From contig NZ_CP070950.1 of assembly GCF_017084525.1 (NCBI RefSeq), positions 2,046,001 through 2,110,000 on the forward strand: a stretch of DNA of 64,000 bases, written 5' to 3'. Positions 24,347 to 31,055 of this stretch are shown here, piece after piece. This DNA is from Conexibacter sp. SYSU D00693 (GTDB lineage: Bacteria > Actinomycetota > Thermoleophilia > Solirubrobacterales > Solirubrobacteraceae). The first letter of the stretch is position 1. Each line of letters starts with the position of its first letter. Position numbers and translations under genes: made by a program. A model generated the notes under the pieces. The model had not been told where the DNA came from and ran no database searches. It saw only the letters and a program-made list of their open reading frames with translations.

Positions 24347-25299
24347 CGCGCGGCCTCCATGGCCAGCAGCGCCGCGCCGAGCATCCCGGCGTCGGCGCCG
24401 AAGCGCGCCTGGACGATCCGCACGACGTCGCGCGACGGCCGCAGCGCGCGCCGGGCGACCTCCTGGCGCGCGGGCTCGAGCAGCAGCTCGCCCGCGGCGA
24501 TCACCCCACCGCCCACGACGACGACCTCCGGGTTGAAGACGTTGACGAACGACGCGATCCCGACGCCGAGGCGCCGGCCGATGAGGGCGACGACGTCGCG
24601 CGCGGCCTGGTCGCCGTCGTGCGCGAGCTCGGTGCACAGCGCGCCGGTGACCTCCGTGCCCGCCGCCAGCGCGCGGCCGAGCCCCGAGTCCGGCGCCGCG
24701 CGCGCCACCCGCAGGGCCTCGCGCCCGAGCGCGGACCCGGAGGCCATGACCTCGAGGCACCCGTTGTTCGGGCACGAGCCCTGGCAGGGCGGGCCGTCGA
24801 GGTCGACGACCACGTGACCGAGCTCGGCCGCCGCGCCGACCGCGCCGCGCACGATCCGCCCGTCGACGACGAGCCCGCCGCCGATGCCCGTCCCGATCGT
24901 CAGCAGGACCGCGTGGCGTGCGCCCATCGCCGCGCCCGCGTGGTGCTCGGCGAGCATCGCGCACGTCGCGTCGTTGTCGACGACGACCGGCACGCCGAGG
25001 CGCTCGGCGAGCAGGTCGCGGATCGGCGCGTCGCGCAGCGGCAGGTGCGTCGTGTGGACCGCGACACCCCGCGCGAGGTCCATGAGCGAGGGGATGCCGA
25101 AGCCGACGGCGCGGACCTCCTCGCCCGCCGCCTGCTGGACCTCGCGCACCTCCGCGACGACGAGGTCGACGAGGGCGGCGGTGTCGCGGACGCGCGGCAG
25201 GCGGTGGGCGCGATGGTGCACGCGCAGGTCCGCGTCCACGGCACCGGCAAGCAGCTTCGTGCCACCGAGGTCGACGCCGATCACGCAGCCGCCGGCCAC
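24343..25299 (-). CDS. ROK-family sugar kinase (glucokinase-like)
   Basis: A 318-residue ATP-dependent sugar kinase. IGVDLGGTKLLAG (phosphate-1), DNDATC with the catalytic Asp, TIGTGIGGGLVV, and the zinc motif GHVVVDLDGPPCQGSCPNNGCLE of the ROK family are present. GTG 25299 is chosen because a TATGGT box lies exactly 8 nt upstream, fitting a leaderless mRNA. It is divergent from the LCP gene, with only 22 nt between starts. Substrate is likely glucose, not proven. Confidence 0.88.
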   Translation of the reverse strand: MAGGCVIGVDLGGTKLLAGAVDADLRVHHRAHRLPRVRDTAALVDLVVAEVREVQQAAGEEVRAVGFGIPSLMDLARGVAVHTTHLPLRDAPIRDLLAERLGVPVVVDNDATCAMLAEHHAGAAMGARHAVLLTIGTGIGGGLVVDGRIVRGAVGAAAELGHVVVDLDGPPCQGSCPNNGCLEVMASGSALGREALRVARAAPDSGLGRALAAGTEVTGALCTELAHDGDQAARDVVALIGRRLGVGIASFVNVFNPEVVVVGGGVIAAGELLLEPARQEVARRALRPSRDVVRIVQARFGADAGMLGAALLAMEAAR

Positions 25300-25307
25300 G
25301 ACGCGCC

Positions 25308-25313
25308 ACCATA
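25308..25313 (-). promoter_or_regulatory. Likely -10 box of leaderless ROK kinase message
   Basis: TATGGT on the minus strand, 8 nt before GTG 25299. No Shine-Dalgarno sequence exists in the 22-nt divergent gap, so transcription from the GTG itself is the simplest reading. Confidence 0.5.
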
Positions 25314-25321
25314 CCCCGTCG

Positions 25322-26434
25322 ATGGCAGGCCACCCCGACCCGCCGCAGACCCCCGACGCCCCGCCCCCGCAGTACACGAAGTACCGGGCGCGCCCCCGGC
25401 TCTTCGGCCGCCGCTCGCGCGACGGCCGCTCGCCCCTGGACGAGCTGCGCCAGGGCCAGCCCCAGCCCGACGGCCGCCGCGTCCACGGGCGCCGTCGCGA
25501 CCGGCGGCTCTCCGTCGGGCGCGTCGTCGCCTGGTTGGCAGCCGCCGCCGTCGCCTGGGTCGTCCTCGCGGCGATCGCGTTCCTGGTGAGCGCGACGATC
25601 CACCAGGAGGGCGGCGCCGACGCGGCGCTCGGCGGCGCGGGCTTCCCGCTCACCTCGCCGAACACCGTGCTCGTCATCGGCTCCGACCAGCGCTCGCGGT
25701 CGACCGCCGAGCCCGGCGCGTCCACGAGCGGCCCGAGCCGCAGCGACACCCTCCTGCTCCTGCGCACCGGCGGCGGCGCCAGCGCGCGCCTGTCCATCCC
25801 GCGCGACACCGTCGTCGACATCCCGGGCCACGGCCGCGGCAAGATCAACGCGGCCTACGCGCTGGGCGGGACCGAGCTCACCGTCCGCACCGTCGAGGGC
25901 TTCCTCGGCACGGAGGTCCACCACGTCGTCGAGGTCGACTTCGAGAACTTCCCGAAGCTCATCGACGCGATGGGCGGCATCGACTACACCGGCGGCTGCG
26001 TCGTCTCGCGCATCAACGGCGGGTTCAAGAACGGCGGCTACACGCTGCGTCTGAAGAAGGGCAAGAACCACCTGGACGGCCGCGCCGCCCTCGCGCTCGC
26101 CCGCACCCGCAAGAACGAGTGCAACCCGCGCGAGTCCGACCTCTCCCGGGCGCGCCGCCAGCAGAAGCTCTTCAGCGCGATGCGCTCGCGGATCTTCAGC
26201 CCCGGCGCGTTCATCCGGCTGCCGTTCATCGGCTGGGCGGCGCCCAAGGCGGTCAAGTCCGACATGAGCGGCCCGACGCTCCTGGGCCTCTTCGGCGGGA
26301 CCGTGATGGGCGGCTCGCCGCCGACGCGCGTGCTCAGGCCGACCGGTGCCGAGACGCTCCCCGACGGCGGCGCGGGGCTGGACGTCTCCCAGGAGGAGGT
26401 CCGCTCGGAGGTCCGGCGCTTCCTCGACGGCTAG
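25322..26434 (+). CDS. LytR-CpsA-Psr (LCP) family protein
   Basis: LCP proteins transfer undecaprenyl-linked glycopolymers to peptidoglycan. A 370-residue type II membrane protein: a Pro/Arg-rich cytoplasmic region (1-66), one membrane helix (about 68-90), then the LCP domain with RSDTLLLLR, SIPRDTVVDIPGHGRGKINAAYALGG, and GGIDYTGG. The catalytic and lipid-binding Arg/Asp residues of these motifs are in place. It has no Shine-Dalgarno sequence. Its stop codon overlaps that of the convergent FmdB gene (shared CTAG). Confidence 0.92.
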   Translation: MAGHPDPPQTPDAPPPQYTKYRARPRLFGRRSRDGRSPLDELRQGQPQPDGRRVHGRRRDRRLSVGRVVAWLAAAAVAWVVLAAIAFLVSATIHQEGGADAALGGAGFPLTSPNTVLVIGSDQRSRSTAEPGASTSGPSRSDTLLLLRTGGGASARLSIPRDTVVDIPGHGRGKINAAYALGGTELTVRTVEGFLGTEVHHVVEVDFENFPKLIDAMGGIDYTGGCVVSRINGGFKNGGYTLRLKKGKNHLDGRAALALARTRKNECNPRESDLSRARRQQKLFSAMRSRIFSPGAFIRLPFIGWAAPKAVKSDMSGPTLLGLFGGTVMGGSPPTRVLRPTGAETLPDGGAGLDVSQEEVRSEVRRFLDG

Positions 26435-26739
26435 GGCGTCCTGGGCGGCGGGGCGGGCTTCTCCGCCGCCTTGGCCTTGGCCCGCTCGGCCCGCTGCGCG
26501 CGCAGCTTGTCGTCGTGGTCGTTGGCGCCCTGCTCAGCCGCCCGGTCCAGGAAGCGGCGCTGGCGCTCGGACCCGACGTCGGTCGCGTAGAACCCCTTGC
26601 CCTTGAAGTGCACGGCCGGCGCGGCCCACACCCGCGTCAGCGCGGCGCCGCACTGCGGGCACGGCCCGGGGGCACCGCCGGCGGCGTGCAGGACCTCGAC
26701 CTCGTGGCCCGCCTCGCAGCGGTACGGGTAGACCGGCAC
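26431..26739 (-). CDS. FmdB-family zinc-ribbon protein
   Basis: 102 residues. A zinc ribbon YRCEAGHEVEVLH...PCPQCG (one Cys plus a CxxC pair with His), then the family motif VHFKGKGFYATD, then a Lys/Ala/Glu-rich helical tail ending in prolines. FmdB-type 'putative regulatory proteins' are small and poorly characterised. GTG start, 21 nt behind a paralogue (26761-27099), so the two are likely one unit controlled by the CIRCE element. Confidence 0.85.
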   Translation of the reverse strand: MPVYPYRCEAGHEVEVLHAAGGAPGPCPQCGAALTRVWAAPAVHFKGKGFYATDVGSERQRRFLDRAAEQGANDHDDKLRAQRAERAKAKAAEKPAPPPRTP

Positions 26740-26760
26740 GGCGCGGCTGCGACGGGCCGG

Positions 26761-27099
26761 CTAGGCGGCCTTCGCGTCCCCGCCCGACGAGGACGAGGAG
26801 GACGACGACCCGCTGTCGCCGCCCGAGGAGGACGAGGACGAGCTGTCGGACGAGCCCGACGAGGAGGAGGACCCGGAGTCCGAGGAGGACGAGGCCGACG
26901 CCTCCTTCTCCTTCTGGCGCTTGCGGGTCCCGTAGTCGGTGTTGTGGAAGCCCTTGCCCTTGAAGTGGATCGCGGGCGCGTGGAGCACCTTCTGCACCGG
27001 CTCGCCCGTCTCGGGGTCCTCGGTGAGCGGCGGATCGGTGAAGCGCTGCATGACCTCGAAGGTCGACCCGTCCTGGCGGCGGTACTCGTAGATCGGCAT
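26761..27099 (-). CDS. Cysteine-less FmdB paralogue with Ser-rich acidic tail
   Basis: About 112 residues. It begins MPIYEYRRQDGSTFEVMQRF and keeps the FmdB end motif IHFKGKGFHNTDYG, so it is clearly related to its neighbour. All zinc-binding cysteines are gone: the CxxC position is replaced by a TDPPLTEDPETGEPVQKVL loop. The last 45 residues are almost only Ser, Asp and Gly. ATG 27099 is preferred over 27114. The promoter (TTGAGA, 18 bp, TATGAT) overlaps a CIRCE operator, implying HrcA-controlled heat-shock expression of this gene and the one behind it. Confidence 0.82.
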   Translation of the reverse strand: MPIYEYRRQDGSTFEVMQRFTDPPLTEDPETGEPVQKVLHAPAIHFKGKGFHNTDYGTRKRQKEKEASASSSSDSGSSSSSGSSDSSSSSSSGGDSGSSSSSSSSGGDAKAA

Positions 27100-27109
27100 T
27101 CCGCCCGCG

Positions 27110-27139
27110 ATCATAGCTCGCGGCCGCTGGCACTCTCAA
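27110..27139 (-). promoter_or_regulatory. Promoter of FmdB gene pair
   Basis: Minus-strand -35 TTGAGA (27139-27134) and -10 TATGAT (27115-27110), 18-bp spacer, 10 nt from ATG 27099. It is the best sigma70-like match in the window and overlaps the CIRCE left half-site. Confidence 0.7.
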
Positions 27140-27153
27140 GCGCAGAGTGCCAA
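27127..27153. promoter_or_regulatory. CIRCE element (HrcA operator)
   Basis: CTGGCACTC, 9 nt, GAGTGCCAA. The consensus CIRCE is TTAGCACTC-N9-GAGTGCTAA; the halves match 7/9 and 8/9 with the exact 9-nt spacer. It overlaps the -35 of the minus-strand FmdB promoter and lies 40 nt upstream of the plus-strand glyS start, just before where that gene's -35 would fall. HrcA binding should repress the FmdB pair and might affect glyS. Confidence 0.88.
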
Positions 27154-27192
27154 TCCGGGCGACGCGACCGACGCCTCTAGCATCCGCCCGCG

Positions 27193-28554
27193 ATGAGCGA
27201 CGACGTCGTGACCATGGACAAGGTCGTGGCGCTGTGCAAGCGCCGCGGCTTCATCTTCCCGAGCTCCGAGATCTACGGCGGGCTGGGCTCGACCTACGAC
27301 TACGGGCACTACGGCGTGCTGCTCAAGACGAACGTCAAGGGCGAGTGGTGGCGCGCGATGCTCCAGGAGCGCGAGGACGTCGTCGCGCTGGACTCGGCGA
27401 TCCTCCAGCACCCGCGCGTCTGGGAGGCCAGCGGCCACCTCGCGGGCTTCACCGACCCGCTCGTCGACTGCCGCGCGTGCAAGCGCCGCTTCCGCGCCGA
27501 CCACCTCGACCCGGACGAGCTCTGCCCCGCCAAGGCGAACCTCCCGAAGACCGAGGACCGCACGCACGACCTCACCGACGTGCGCGCGTTCAACCTGATG
27601 TTCAAGACGCACGTCGGGCCGGTGGAGGAGACGGCGTCGGTCGCCTACCTGCGGCCCGAGACGGCGCAGGGCATCTTCATCAACTTCAAGAACGTCCTGC
27701 AGTTCGCGCGCAAGAAGCCGCCGTTCGGCATCGCGCAGGTCGGCAAGTCGTTCCGCAACGAGATCACCCCCGGCAACTTCATCTTCCGCACGCGCGAGTT
27801 CGAGCAGATGGAGATGGAGTTCTTCGTCCCGCCGGACGAGGCGCCGCGCTGGTACGACGAGTGGAAGCGCCTGCGCCACGAGTGGTACATCCGCCTGGGC
27901 ATCCGCCCCGACCACCTGCGCATGCGCGAGCACGAGCAGGACGAGCTCTCGCACTACTCGAGCGGCACCGCCGACGTGGAGTACCTCTTCCCGATCGGCT
28001 GGTCCGAGCTCGAGGGCATCGCCAACCGCGGGGACTTCGACCTCACCCAGCACGCCGAGTTCTCCGGCGAGAAGCTCGAGTACTTCGACCCGAACACCAA
28101 GGAGCGCTACGTCCCGCACGTGATCGAGCCCGCCGCGGGCGCCGACCGCGCGACCCTCGCGTTCCTCGTCGACGCCTACGACGAGGAGGAGGTGGAGGGC
28201 GAGACGCGCACCGTCCTCAAGCTCCACCCGCGCCTGGCGCCGGTGAAGGTCGCGGTGCTGCCGCTCGTGCGCAAGGACGGCCAGCCCGAGCTGGCCCGCG
28301 AGGTCCACGCCACGCTGCGCTCGCAGCTGCAGACCGAGTACGACGAGGGCGGCTCGATCGGCAAGCGCTACCGCCGCCAGGACGAGATCGGCACACCCTG
28401 GTGTGTGACGATCGACCACGACACGCTGCAGGACCGCACCGTCACGGTGCGCGACCGGGACTCGCTCCAGCAGGAGCGTGTGGCGATCGACGACCTGCCC
28501 GCGAACCTCGCCGCCCGCATGGCGGCGGAGTGGCGCTCGCCGAAGCTCGGGTAG
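27193..28554 (+). CDS. glyS: Glycyl-tRNA synthetase, single-chain dimeric type
   Basis: Class II aminoacyl-tRNA synthetase, 453 residues, of the alpha2 (eukaryote/archaea/actinobacteria) kind. Visible are GGLGSTYDYGHYG, the zinc-like CRACKRRF...LCPAK insert, motif 2 RPETAQGIFINFKN...GKSFRNEITPGNFIFRTREFEQ split across about 155-205, and a C-terminal anticodon-binding domain (RRQDEIGTPWCVTID). ATG 27193 has TAGCAT 9 nt upstream and no Shine-Dalgarno sequence. The CIRCE element lies in its 5' region. Confidence 0.96.
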   Translation: MSDDVVTMDKVVALCKRRGFIFPSSEIYGGLGSTYDYGHYGVLLKTNVKGEWWRAMLQEREDVVALDSAILQHPRVWEASGHLAGFTDPLVDCRACKRRFRADHLDPDELCPAKANLPKTEDRTHDLTDVRAFNLMFKTHVGPVEETASVAYLRPETAQGIFINFKNVLQFARKKPPFGIAQVGKSFRNEITPGNFIFRTREFEQMEMEFFVPPDEAPRWYDEWKRLRHEWYIRLGIRPDHLRMREHEQDELSHYSSGTADVEYLFPIGWSELEGIANRGDFDLTQHAEFSGEKLEYFDPNTKERYVPHVIEPAAGADRATLAFLVDAYDEEEVEGETRTVLKLHPRLAPVKVAVLPLVRKDGQPELAREVHATLRSQLQTEYDEGGSIGKRYRRQDEIGTPWCVTIDHDTLQDRTVTVRDRDSLQQERVAIDDLPANLAARMAAEWRSPKLG

Positions 28555-28558
28555 GACC

Positions 28559-28578
28559 CTCGGGGCATGGGCCCCGAG
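28559..28578 (+). promoter_or_regulatory. Hairpin enclosing the phospholipase start codon
   Basis: CTCGGGGC, loop ATGG, GCCCCGAG: a perfect 8-bp GC stem whose loop holds the ATG (28567) of the next gene, 5 nt after the glyS stop. It could attenuate translation, or act as a glyS terminator without a U-tract. Confidence 0.5.
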
Positions 28579-30018
28579 CTCCTTGGACGGCTGGACGCGC
28601 GCATCGGCGACGCGGTCGAGGCGGCGGTGCGCCTCAAGCACCGCCGCCGGCTTGCGCGCCTGGGCTGGGCGCACGCGCTCGACCCGCCCGACGACGGCCC
28701 GTTCTGCCTCGGCGACCCGGCGCCCCGCGACGGCTGCGCGGTCGACGTGCTCATCGACGGCGCCCAGGCGCTGCCCGCCATCGCGCAGGCGATCCGCGGA
28801 GCGCGCCGCTCCGTGCACCTGACCGGGTGGCACGTCGCGCCGGGCTTCGAGCTCGAGCGCGGCGAGCCCGCGTGCAGCGTCGGCCAGCTGCTGGCCGAGG
28901 CCGCCGAGCGCGTCGACGTGCGGATGCTCGTGTGGGCCGGGGCGCCCGTCCCGGCGTTCCACCCGACGCGCAAGGAGGTCGAGGCCACGGTCCACGACCT
29001 CGTGCGGGGCACCCGCATCCGCTGCGAGCGCGACCCCCGCGAGCACCCGTTCCACTGCCACCACGAGAAGACGGTCGTCGTCGACGGCGAGGTCGCGTTC
29101 GTCGGCGGGATCGACCTCACCGACCAGGCGGGCGACCGGTTCGACTCGCCCGGGCACCCGGCGCGCCGGCGCCTCGGGTGGCACGACGCGGCCGTCCGGC
29201 TGCGCGGGCCCGCGGTGGCCGACGTCGACGCGCACTTCTGCCTGCGCTGGGGCGAGGTGACCGGCGAGCGCCTGGAGCCCTGCGCCCCGCCGCCGCCCGC
29301 CGGGAGCTCCACCGTCCAGGTGGTCCGCACCGTCGCCGAGGACATGTACGACGGCGTGCCGCGAGGCGACTTCCGCATCCTCGAGGCCTACGTCCGCGCG
29401 CTGCGCTCCGCGCGGCGGCTCGTCTACCTCGAGAACCAGTTCCTCTGGTCGCCCGAGCTCGTCGCGGTGCTCGCCGAGAAGCTGCGCCGGCCGCCCAGCG
29501 ACGAGTTCCGCGTGGTCGTCGTGCTGCCCGCGAAGGCCAACAACGGCCAGGACGACACCCGTGGCCAGCTCGGCGTCCTGGTCGACGCCGACGACGGGGC
29601 CGGGCGCTTCCTGGCCGCGACGGTCCGCGGGCGCTCGGGCGGGCGCACCGATCCGCTCTACGTCCACGCGAAGGTCTGCGTCGTCGACGACGAGCGCCTC
29701 CTGCTGGGGTCGGCGAACCTCAACGCGCACTCGCTGCTCAACGACACCGAGATGGACGTCGTCTGCGACGACCCCGCGGTGGCCCGCGACACCCGTGTGC
29801 GCCTGTGGGCCGAGCACCTCGAGCTCGACGTGGACGAGGTCGCGGCCGCCGACCCCACAGCGCTGGTGGACGAGCGCTGGCAGCCGGTCGCCGCGGCCGA
29901 GCTGCGTCGCCAGGAGGCCGGCGAGCCCGCCCGGCACCGCCTCGTCGCCCTCCCCGGCGTCTCGCGCCGCTCGGCCCGCCTCCTGGGTCCCCTCCAGGGC
30001 CTCGTCGACGACGGCTGA
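28567..30018 (+). CDS. Phospholipase D / cardiolipin synthase-like protein
   Basis: PLD superfamily enzyme, 483 residues, with two HKD motifs: HHEKTVVVDGEVAFVGG (about 165) and VHAKVCVVDDERLLLGSANLN (about 365). There are no membrane segments, so it is cytoplasmic or peripherally bound; similar actinobacterial proteins act as phosphatidyltransferases or phosphodiesterases. The C-terminus (last 40 residues) is Arg-rich. The ATG lies in a hairpin loop 12 nt after glyS. Confidence 0.88.
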   Translation: MGPELLGRLDARIGDAVEAAVRLKHRRRLARLGWAHALDPPDDGPFCLGDPAPRDGCAVDVLIDGAQALPAIAQAIRGARRSVHLTGWHVAPGFELERGEPACSVGQLLAEAAERVDVRMLVWAGAPVPAFHPTRKEVEATVHDLVRGTRIRCERDPREHPFHCHHEKTVVVDGEVAFVGGIDLTDQAGDRFDSPGHPARRRLGWHDAAVRLRGPAVADVDAHFCLRWGEVTGERLEPCAPPPPAGSSTVQVVRTVAEDMYDGVPRGDFRILEAYVRALRSARRLVYLENQFLWSPELVAVLAEKLRRPPSDEFRVVVVLPAKANNGQDDTRGQLGVLVDADDGAGRFLAATVRGRSGGRTDPLYVHAKVCVVDDERLLLGSANLNAHSLLNDTEMDVVCDDPAVARDTRVRLWAEHLELDVDEVAAADPTALVDERWQPVAAAELRRQEAGEPARHRLVALPGVSRRSARLLGPLQGLVDDG

Positions 30019-30095: not shown

Positions 30096-31055
30096 GTGCG
30101 CCGTCTGCCCCCGGTCCTGTTCGCCCTCCTCGCGCTGCTCGCGCTCGTCCCCGCGGCGAACGCCGCCCGTGCCGGCAGCGGCGGCGTCGACCGGCTGCTC
30201 GGCAGCCCGGGCATCGACAAGCTCCTCGGCCTCGGCGGCAACGACCACCTCTTCGGCGCCGGCGGCGACGACCGCCTCAACGGCGGCAACGGCAACGACA
30301 CCGTCCTCGGCGGCGCCGGTGAGGACGACCTCGACGGCGGTGACGGCGACGACGACGTCCGCGGGGGCGACGGCGCCGACCAGATCCACGAGGACGGCTT
30401 CGGGGACGACGTCCTCGCGGGCGACGCGGGCGACGACTCGATCAAGGGCGGCCACGGCGTCGACGAGATCCTCGGCGGCGCCGGCGACGACGAGATCTGG
30501 GGCGGCCCCGGCCCCGACGCCGTCGACTGCGGCCCCGGCGACGACGTGGTCCACGTGAACCTCCGCTCCGAGCTCGAGCAGCTCATCGACTGCGAGGACG
30601 TGCGCGAGGAGGAGGACGTCGCCTACGTCACGTGCGAGATGGGCGGCACCGAGTGGGGCGAGGTCGTGCACGGCACCGAGGGCGATGACCGCTGCCACGG
30701 CAACGGCGGCGACGACGTCGTCGAGGGCGCCGGCGGATCGGACTGGCTCGCGGGCGACGACGGCGCCGACAAGGTCTTCGGGCGCTTCGGCGACGACCAC
30801 CTCCTCGGCGGCGCGGGCAACGACGAGCTCCAGGGCGGCCGCGGTCGCGACGTGCTCGACGGCGGCGCCGGCAACGACGAGGTCACCGGCGGCTACGGCT
30901 TCGACCGGCTCAAGGGCGGTGCGGGCAACGACCGCCTGACCCCGGGCTGGGGCGAGCGCGGCGAGCTCGTCGACTGCGGCCCCGGCCGCGACGTCGCCAT
31001 CATCGGCCCGGGCGACCGCACCAAGAACTGCGAGACGGTCCGCCGCGGCGGCTGA
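30096..31055 (+). CDS. Secreted RTX-type calcium-binding repeat protein
   Basis: 319 residues. A signal peptide (LPPVLFALLALLALVPAANA) is followed by glycine/aspartate nonapeptides of the GGxGxDxLx type in two blocks (about 30-140 and 205-300), the beta-roll of hemolysin-type calcium-binding proteins. Between them is a non-repeat segment with Cys residues (LIDCEDV, YVTCEMG). There is no catalytic domain and no type I secretion partner in the window. GTG start after a 77-nt gap. The repeats are Ca-binding by analogy. Confidence 0.85.
   Translation: MRRLPPVLFALLALLALVPAANAARAGSGGVDRLLGSPGIDKLLGLGGNDHLFGAGGDDRLNGGNGNDTVLGGAGEDDLDGGDGDDDVRGGDGADQIHEDGFGDDVLAGDAGDDSIKGGHGVDEILGGAGDDEIWGGPGPDAVDCGPGDDVVHVNLRSELEQLIDCEDVREEEDVAYVTCEMGGTEWGEVVHGTEGDDRCHGNGGDDVVEGAGGSDWLAGDDGADKVFGRFGDDHLLGGAGNDELQGGRGRDVLDGGAGNDEVTGGYGFDRLKGGAGNDRLTPGWGERGELVDCGPGRDVAIIGPGDRTKNCETVRRGG

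Follow-up and report, generated by a model that had tools for sequence, protein, structure and literature searches.

The intergenic region between a pair of FmdB-family genes and the divergent gene glyS in Conexibacter sp. SYSU D00693 carries an inverted repeat resembling CIRCE, the operator of the heat-shock repressor HrcA. It raises the question of whether the repeat is a working operator, which of the flanking genes it would control and what the products of these genes do. We examined this in the window, meaning the whole 64,000-nucleotide stretch of DNA analysed, in the host genome (4,429,419 bp, one contig) and in relatives from the same order, class and phylum. At a probability of roughly 0.8, we propose that 27127-27153 is a functional CIRCE, that the FmdB-family genes form a two-gene operon repressed by HrcA and induced by heat together with groES/groEL, and that their products are Ruc-type holdase chaperones.

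A predicted CIRCE operator within a minus-strand promoter

We identified two FmdB/Ruc-like genes on the minus strand, as the original prediction had proposed, and both were confirmed by Pfam PF09723 and NCBIfam TIGR02605. The first (26761..27099) encodes a cysteine-less protein of 112 aa, and the second (26431..26739, GTG start) a paralog of 102 aa. The gap between them is 21 nt, and they are the top two PF09723 matches of the host genome. A LytR-CpsA-Psr gene on the plus strand (24884-26434) is convergent with the second gene and overlaps its end by 4 bp; the same type of neighbour occurs at loci L040 and L044.

Upstream of the first gene, positions 27127-27153 read CTGGCACTCTCAAGCGCAGAGTGCCAA, with a perfect CIRCE core, TGGCACTC-N9-GAGTGCCA, at 27128-27152. 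We annotate this strandless element as a predicted HrcA-binding inverted repeat on the basis of its core and its conservation in relatives. It is a 9-9-9 inverted repeat with three mismatches to the classical consensus, TTAGCACTC-N9-GAGTGCTAA. When up to three mismatches to that consensus are allowed, the element is the sole match in the window (none in 100 shuffles) and the whole genome contains exactly three sites (none in the reversed control). The same three sites match the core pattern perfectly. The next best site has two mismatches, and at up to three mismatches the core pattern yields 29 genome matches versus 50 in the control, so the three perfect sites are well clear of the background.

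The remaining two sites lie 71 bp apart, both upstream of groES, a gene that we named by eye from its protein sequence, which begins MKLKPLGDRLIV. The genome also encodes hrcA (PF01628, E 1.6e-44), with a dnaJ-like gene immediately downstream of it; no CIRCE was found at hrcA itself with the classical consensus at up to three mismatches. The exact spacing originally claimed for the element is therefore borne out by a perfect core that is one of three genome-wide. That the repeat arose by chance might be argued from its three departures from the Bacillus-type consensus, but both groES sites depart from it in the same manner. The occurrence of just three perfect sites in 4.43 Mb, and the recurrence and conservation of the site at homologous genes (below), contradict chance further, and we consider the probability of a chance match to be negligible.

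The only promoter-like match in 26380-27300 (shuffle mean 0.0) is TTGAGA-18-TATGAT on the minus strand, from 27139 to 27110. The original prediction had CIRCE overlapping its -35 box, and we find the box (TTGAGA, 27134..27139, minus strand) to be wholly within the operator. The -10 box (TATGAT, 27110..27115, minus strand) ends 10 nt ahead of the ATG at 27099, before which no Shine-Dalgarno sequence was detected, suggesting that the mRNA of the pair is probably leaderless or nearly so. In the order, a -10-like hexamer, mostly 8-11 nt before the start codon, is present at 103 of 110 homologous loci (about five are expected from shuffles), and a Shine-Dalgarno-like motif at none of the 110.

Conservation of the operator at FmdB genes

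Of 121 genomes sampled in the order, 114 have a homolog of the FmdB gene, and 110 loci were read in detail, with CIRCE counted at no more than one core mismatch near the start codon. By this measure, a CIRCE lies no more than about 50 bp from the start codon of the homolog at 40 of the 110 loci. In the 295 kb covered by the loci read, we counted 42 CIRCE-like sites versus one in the reversed control. In 18 of the 40, including the window (class a), the core stops 27-48 bp short of the start codon, with invariant arms and variable spacers. In the other 22 (class b), just 1-2 bp separate the core from the start codon, and the -10 falls within the 9-nt spacer, most commonly in the layout GGCACTC-CTATACTGA-GAGTGCC-ATG. 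Genome G226 (locus L084) carries the genus label of the window genome, yet its glyS falls with family f3 on the glyS tree and its ruc promoter belongs to class b; this points either to transfer of the locus or to a loose genus label.

The association extends beyond the order. With a laxer pattern, which gave some control matches as well, 225 of 249 genomes surveyed in the class contain CIRCE-like sites. In a sample from across the phylum, a CIRCE at no more than one mismatch is present at 21 of 88 loci. A perfect core was found upstream of homologs in Streptomyces, Actinacidiphila, Yinghuangia, Micromonospora, Pseudonocardia, Gordonia and an Acidimicrobiales MAG, and a core with one mismatch in Nocardia. 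In Streptomyces the operator is directly beside the Shine-Dalgarno sequence. The operator thus occupies at least three promoter positions of the same gene (on the -35, on the -10 and in the leader), suggesting that HrcA control itself has been selected.

No clear CIRCE was found at the FmdB gene in 70 of the 110 loci despite the presence of hrcA in 116 of the 121 genomes, which indicates that HrcA control of this gene is optional. For the same reason we rejected a lack of hrcA as the cause of missing operators, and the absence of CIRCE from families f2 and f4 points to a change of regulon and not to loss of the repressor. On the glyS tree, CIRCE presence changes at least 17 times, a count that does not tell gain from loss. 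Overall, the operator is conserved with the gene in a large minority of relatives and has been gained or lost many times. CIRCE control of the FmdB pair, the core of the original prediction, is well supported at the level of sequence by hrcA, the groES sites and this conservation.

The divergent gene glyS

It was also suggested that the operator could affect glyS (27193..28554, plus strand), confirmed here as glycyl-tRNA synthetase. CIRCE lies 39 nt before the glyS ATG, and the divergent neighbour of the FmdB gene is glyS in most genomes of the order, as would be expected if glycyl-tRNA synthetase were a heat-shock gene here and the operator regulated it, alone or with its divergent neighbour. 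When the two genes are separated, it is the FmdB gene that retains CIRCE. This is seen in genera g14 and g16, where the FmdB gene has a CIRCE and none with zero or one mismatch was found at glyS (L275-L277). In genus g8, the operator is located 46-48 bp from the FmdB gene, and its distance to glyS, at those loci where the stretch read included glyS, is about 1.3 kb. The two genes are not neighbours in Streptomyces and others, and in the class b promoters CIRCE abuts the FmdB ATG. There is also no plus-strand promoter match. We thus rejected glyS as the target, a role that we regard as quite unlikely, although bound HrcA may have a steric effect on glyS in the host genome.

Right after glyS, a plus-strand gene (28567-30018) encodes a phospholipase D-like protein with PLDc motifs that resembles cardiolipin synthase and has a DrmC match below the cut-off. 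It is followed by a plus-strand ORF (30096-31055) rich in GGxGxDxLxGG-like repeats that resemble RTX-type calcium-binding repeats.

Ruc-like proteins with and without candidate zinc ligands

In M. tuberculosis, HrcA directly represses groES, groEL1, groEL2 and ruc (Rv0991c). The Ruc protein binds zinc by four cysteines and becomes a chaperone upon oxidation; its activity requires a disordered tail, and Cys-to-Ser variants, which do not bind zinc, are already active in the reduced state (PMC7448276). The FmdB pair had been presented as an unknown player in the heat-shock regulon, a description that does not hold, as an FmdB-type gene, ruc, is already a known HrcA target (PMC7448276).

The first protein of the pair shares with Ruc a homologous N-terminal domain of about 50 residues. 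It aligns with the Ruc-type protein of locus L213 from the phylum sample, which we assign to the mycobacterial type by sequence resemblance, at E 3e-12 and an hhalign probability of 98.3%, although the identity is only 38% over 56 residues. Typical family members carry CxxC...CxxC, whereas this protein reads YRRQDGSTFEV...TEDPETGEP, with other residues at the ligand positions. None of its 112 residues is a cysteine, and it is a Cys-less homologue, not Ruc in the redox sense. The 'zinc-ribbon' of the original prediction fits the pair in part: the loss of all zinc-binding cysteines from the first protein had been missed, so that this protein probably forms no metal-binding zinc ribbon, and the second keeps a Cys3-His set (C8, H12, C27 and C30). 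These four residues are invariant or nearly so, H12 being among the latter, in Cys-bearing relatives of the order and could bind zinc, in a set that differs from the published Cys4.

An AlphaFold model of the first protein, computed from 33 Cys-less sequences, has high confidence for residues 1-40 (pLDDT about 93, three strands), consistent with a ribbon-like N-terminal domain without cysteine ligands. The low-complexity Ser/Gly/Asp-rich tail is predicted to be disordered (pLDDT below 50 for residues 72-95 and 109-112), so the protein has the disordered hydrophilic C-terminal tail of Ruc. The second protein gave a similar model of lower confidence. A sequence search of solved structures found no relative.

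The name of the FmdB family derives from a formamidase regulatory gene. On the strength of that name the pair might be taken to encode transcriptional regulators through which HrcA drives a second regulatory tier, the more so as ribbon folds can bind nucleic acid or RNA polymerase and Foldseek returned RbpA and other ribbon proteins. Those matches are weak (best E 0.28), not significant, and support nothing by themselves. The one member for which we found published biochemistry is a chaperone (PMC7448276), and both co-regulation with GroE and a disordered hydrophilic tail fit a chaperone. We therefore judge the regulator hypothesis unlikely, and retain the reading of both products as Ruc-type chaperones.

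Distribution of Cys-less homologues

Within the order, Cys-less proteins are spread over many genera of family f1 and are encoded by each of the four f4 genomes read. On the glyS tree we count no fewer than five changes of the cysteine state, again without separating gain from loss, and a single Cys-less clade, a group that had been named by its trait, was rejected on that tree (p-AU 7e-62). The ruc gene may have moved separately from glyS. CIRCE accompanies 12 of 28 Cys-less genes versus 28 of 81 Cys-bearing ones (Fisher p 0.50); we thus discarded a link between cysteine loss and CIRCE, and the operator is not simply a compensation for the lost redox switch.

In another part of the phylum, all six sampled genomes of family f33 encode Cys-less proteins with a different motif (HPETG and similar), and one of the six has a CIRCE with one mismatch. 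At these loci (L220, L237, L250, L253, L260 and L262) the zinc ligands were apparently lost separately. Within a Cys-bearing genus, the FmdB protein of locus L105 (genome G272) is nearly Cys-less, with one cysteine and the motifs RREDGTTF/CPTTG; its close relatives are Cys3-His and differ little in glyS, which points to recombination or to a change that took place very recently.

Among the loci read, a Cys-less gene paired with a Cys-bearing one was seen only in the genome of the window. With all metal ligands gone and a Cys-bearing paralog downstream, the first gene might be a decaying copy beside the only gene that matters. It has nonetheless kept its promoter and an intact ORF, and the Cys-less form is the sole copy found in most of the genomes that have it, with 19 residues invariant over 33 Cys-less sequences. 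Five g8 genomes even carry two Cys-less copies each, in tandem. Decay is thus very unlikely, and we treat both genes as functional members of the proposed operon.

Proposed function and significance

We propose that HrcA bound to 27127-27153 would cover the -35 box and keep the operon of 26761-27099 and 26431-26739 off. Heat or a load of misfolded protein would inactivate HrcA, classically through titration of GroEL, and a probably leaderless mRNA would then allow both proteins to be made together with groES/groEL. Both products would act as Ruc-type holdases. The second, with its Cys3-His set, would possibly be redox-switched. The first should need no oxidation, as it has no cysteine and Ruc with its cysteines replaced by serine does not depend on oxidation for activity (PMC7448276), and would be a constitutive holdase governed by its supply, that is, by HrcA. 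In this scheme HrcA binding, heat induction, the leaderless start, chaperone activity and the constitutive activity of the Cys-less protein are all predicted from sequence.

More tentatively, and at somewhat less than even odds, we speculate that Actinomycetota have repeatedly turned a redox-switched Ruc into a zinc-free constitutive holdase by replacing both zinc knuckles with tight turns (RxDG and DPETG here, HPETG in another family), and that an HrcA operon with one Cys-less and one Cys-bearing member combines a heat channel with a redox channel.

These results point to HrcA control of Ruc-type genes in many lineages of Actinomycetota beyond the mycobacteria, and the differing promoter positions of the operator argue that the GroE-HrcA loop has the supply of Ruc among its important outputs. 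As a natural variant, the Cys-less clade offers a ready test of the published activation of Ruc by zinc loss, and of why a cell would abandon a redox switch. In relatives, the operator, the -10 and the start codon are contained in fewer than 30 bases, an unusually compact, repressible and probably leaderless promoter. HrcA control of an FmdB-type gene is already known; the Cys-less first protein and its clade, beside a co-transcribed Cys3-His paralog, and the CIRCE with a -10 in its spacer look new. In open-licence literature, judged by title and abstract, we found no description of the Cys-less form or of the class b operator.

Comparison with known systems

The closest known system is M. tuberculosis Rv0991c (Ruc; Becker et al. 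2020, PMC7448276), with which the host locus shares the homologous N-terminal domain, the disordered hydrophilic tail and an HrcA operator (here predicted) in the promoter, in common with groES/groEL. Ruc has four cysteines versus none in the first protein here, and unlike ruc, the host gene is paired with a Cys3-His paralog and has a probably leaderless promoter with CIRCE on the -35. M. tuberculosis ruc has an additional SigH site that overlaps its HrcA site. Hsp33 works like Ruc, being inactive when zinc-bound and an active holdase when oxidised (PMC7448276), but it is unrelated in sequence, and the Cys-less form described here cannot use a switch of the Hsp33 type. As in the classical CIRCE/HrcA operons (groESL, dnaK and hrcA), the operator is an inverted repeat with a 9-nt spacer, and host groES has two copies. 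Unlike in those operons, the FmdB target is neither a chaperonin nor a dnaK-operon gene, and in relatives the spacer itself holds the -10, with the start codon directly after the operator.
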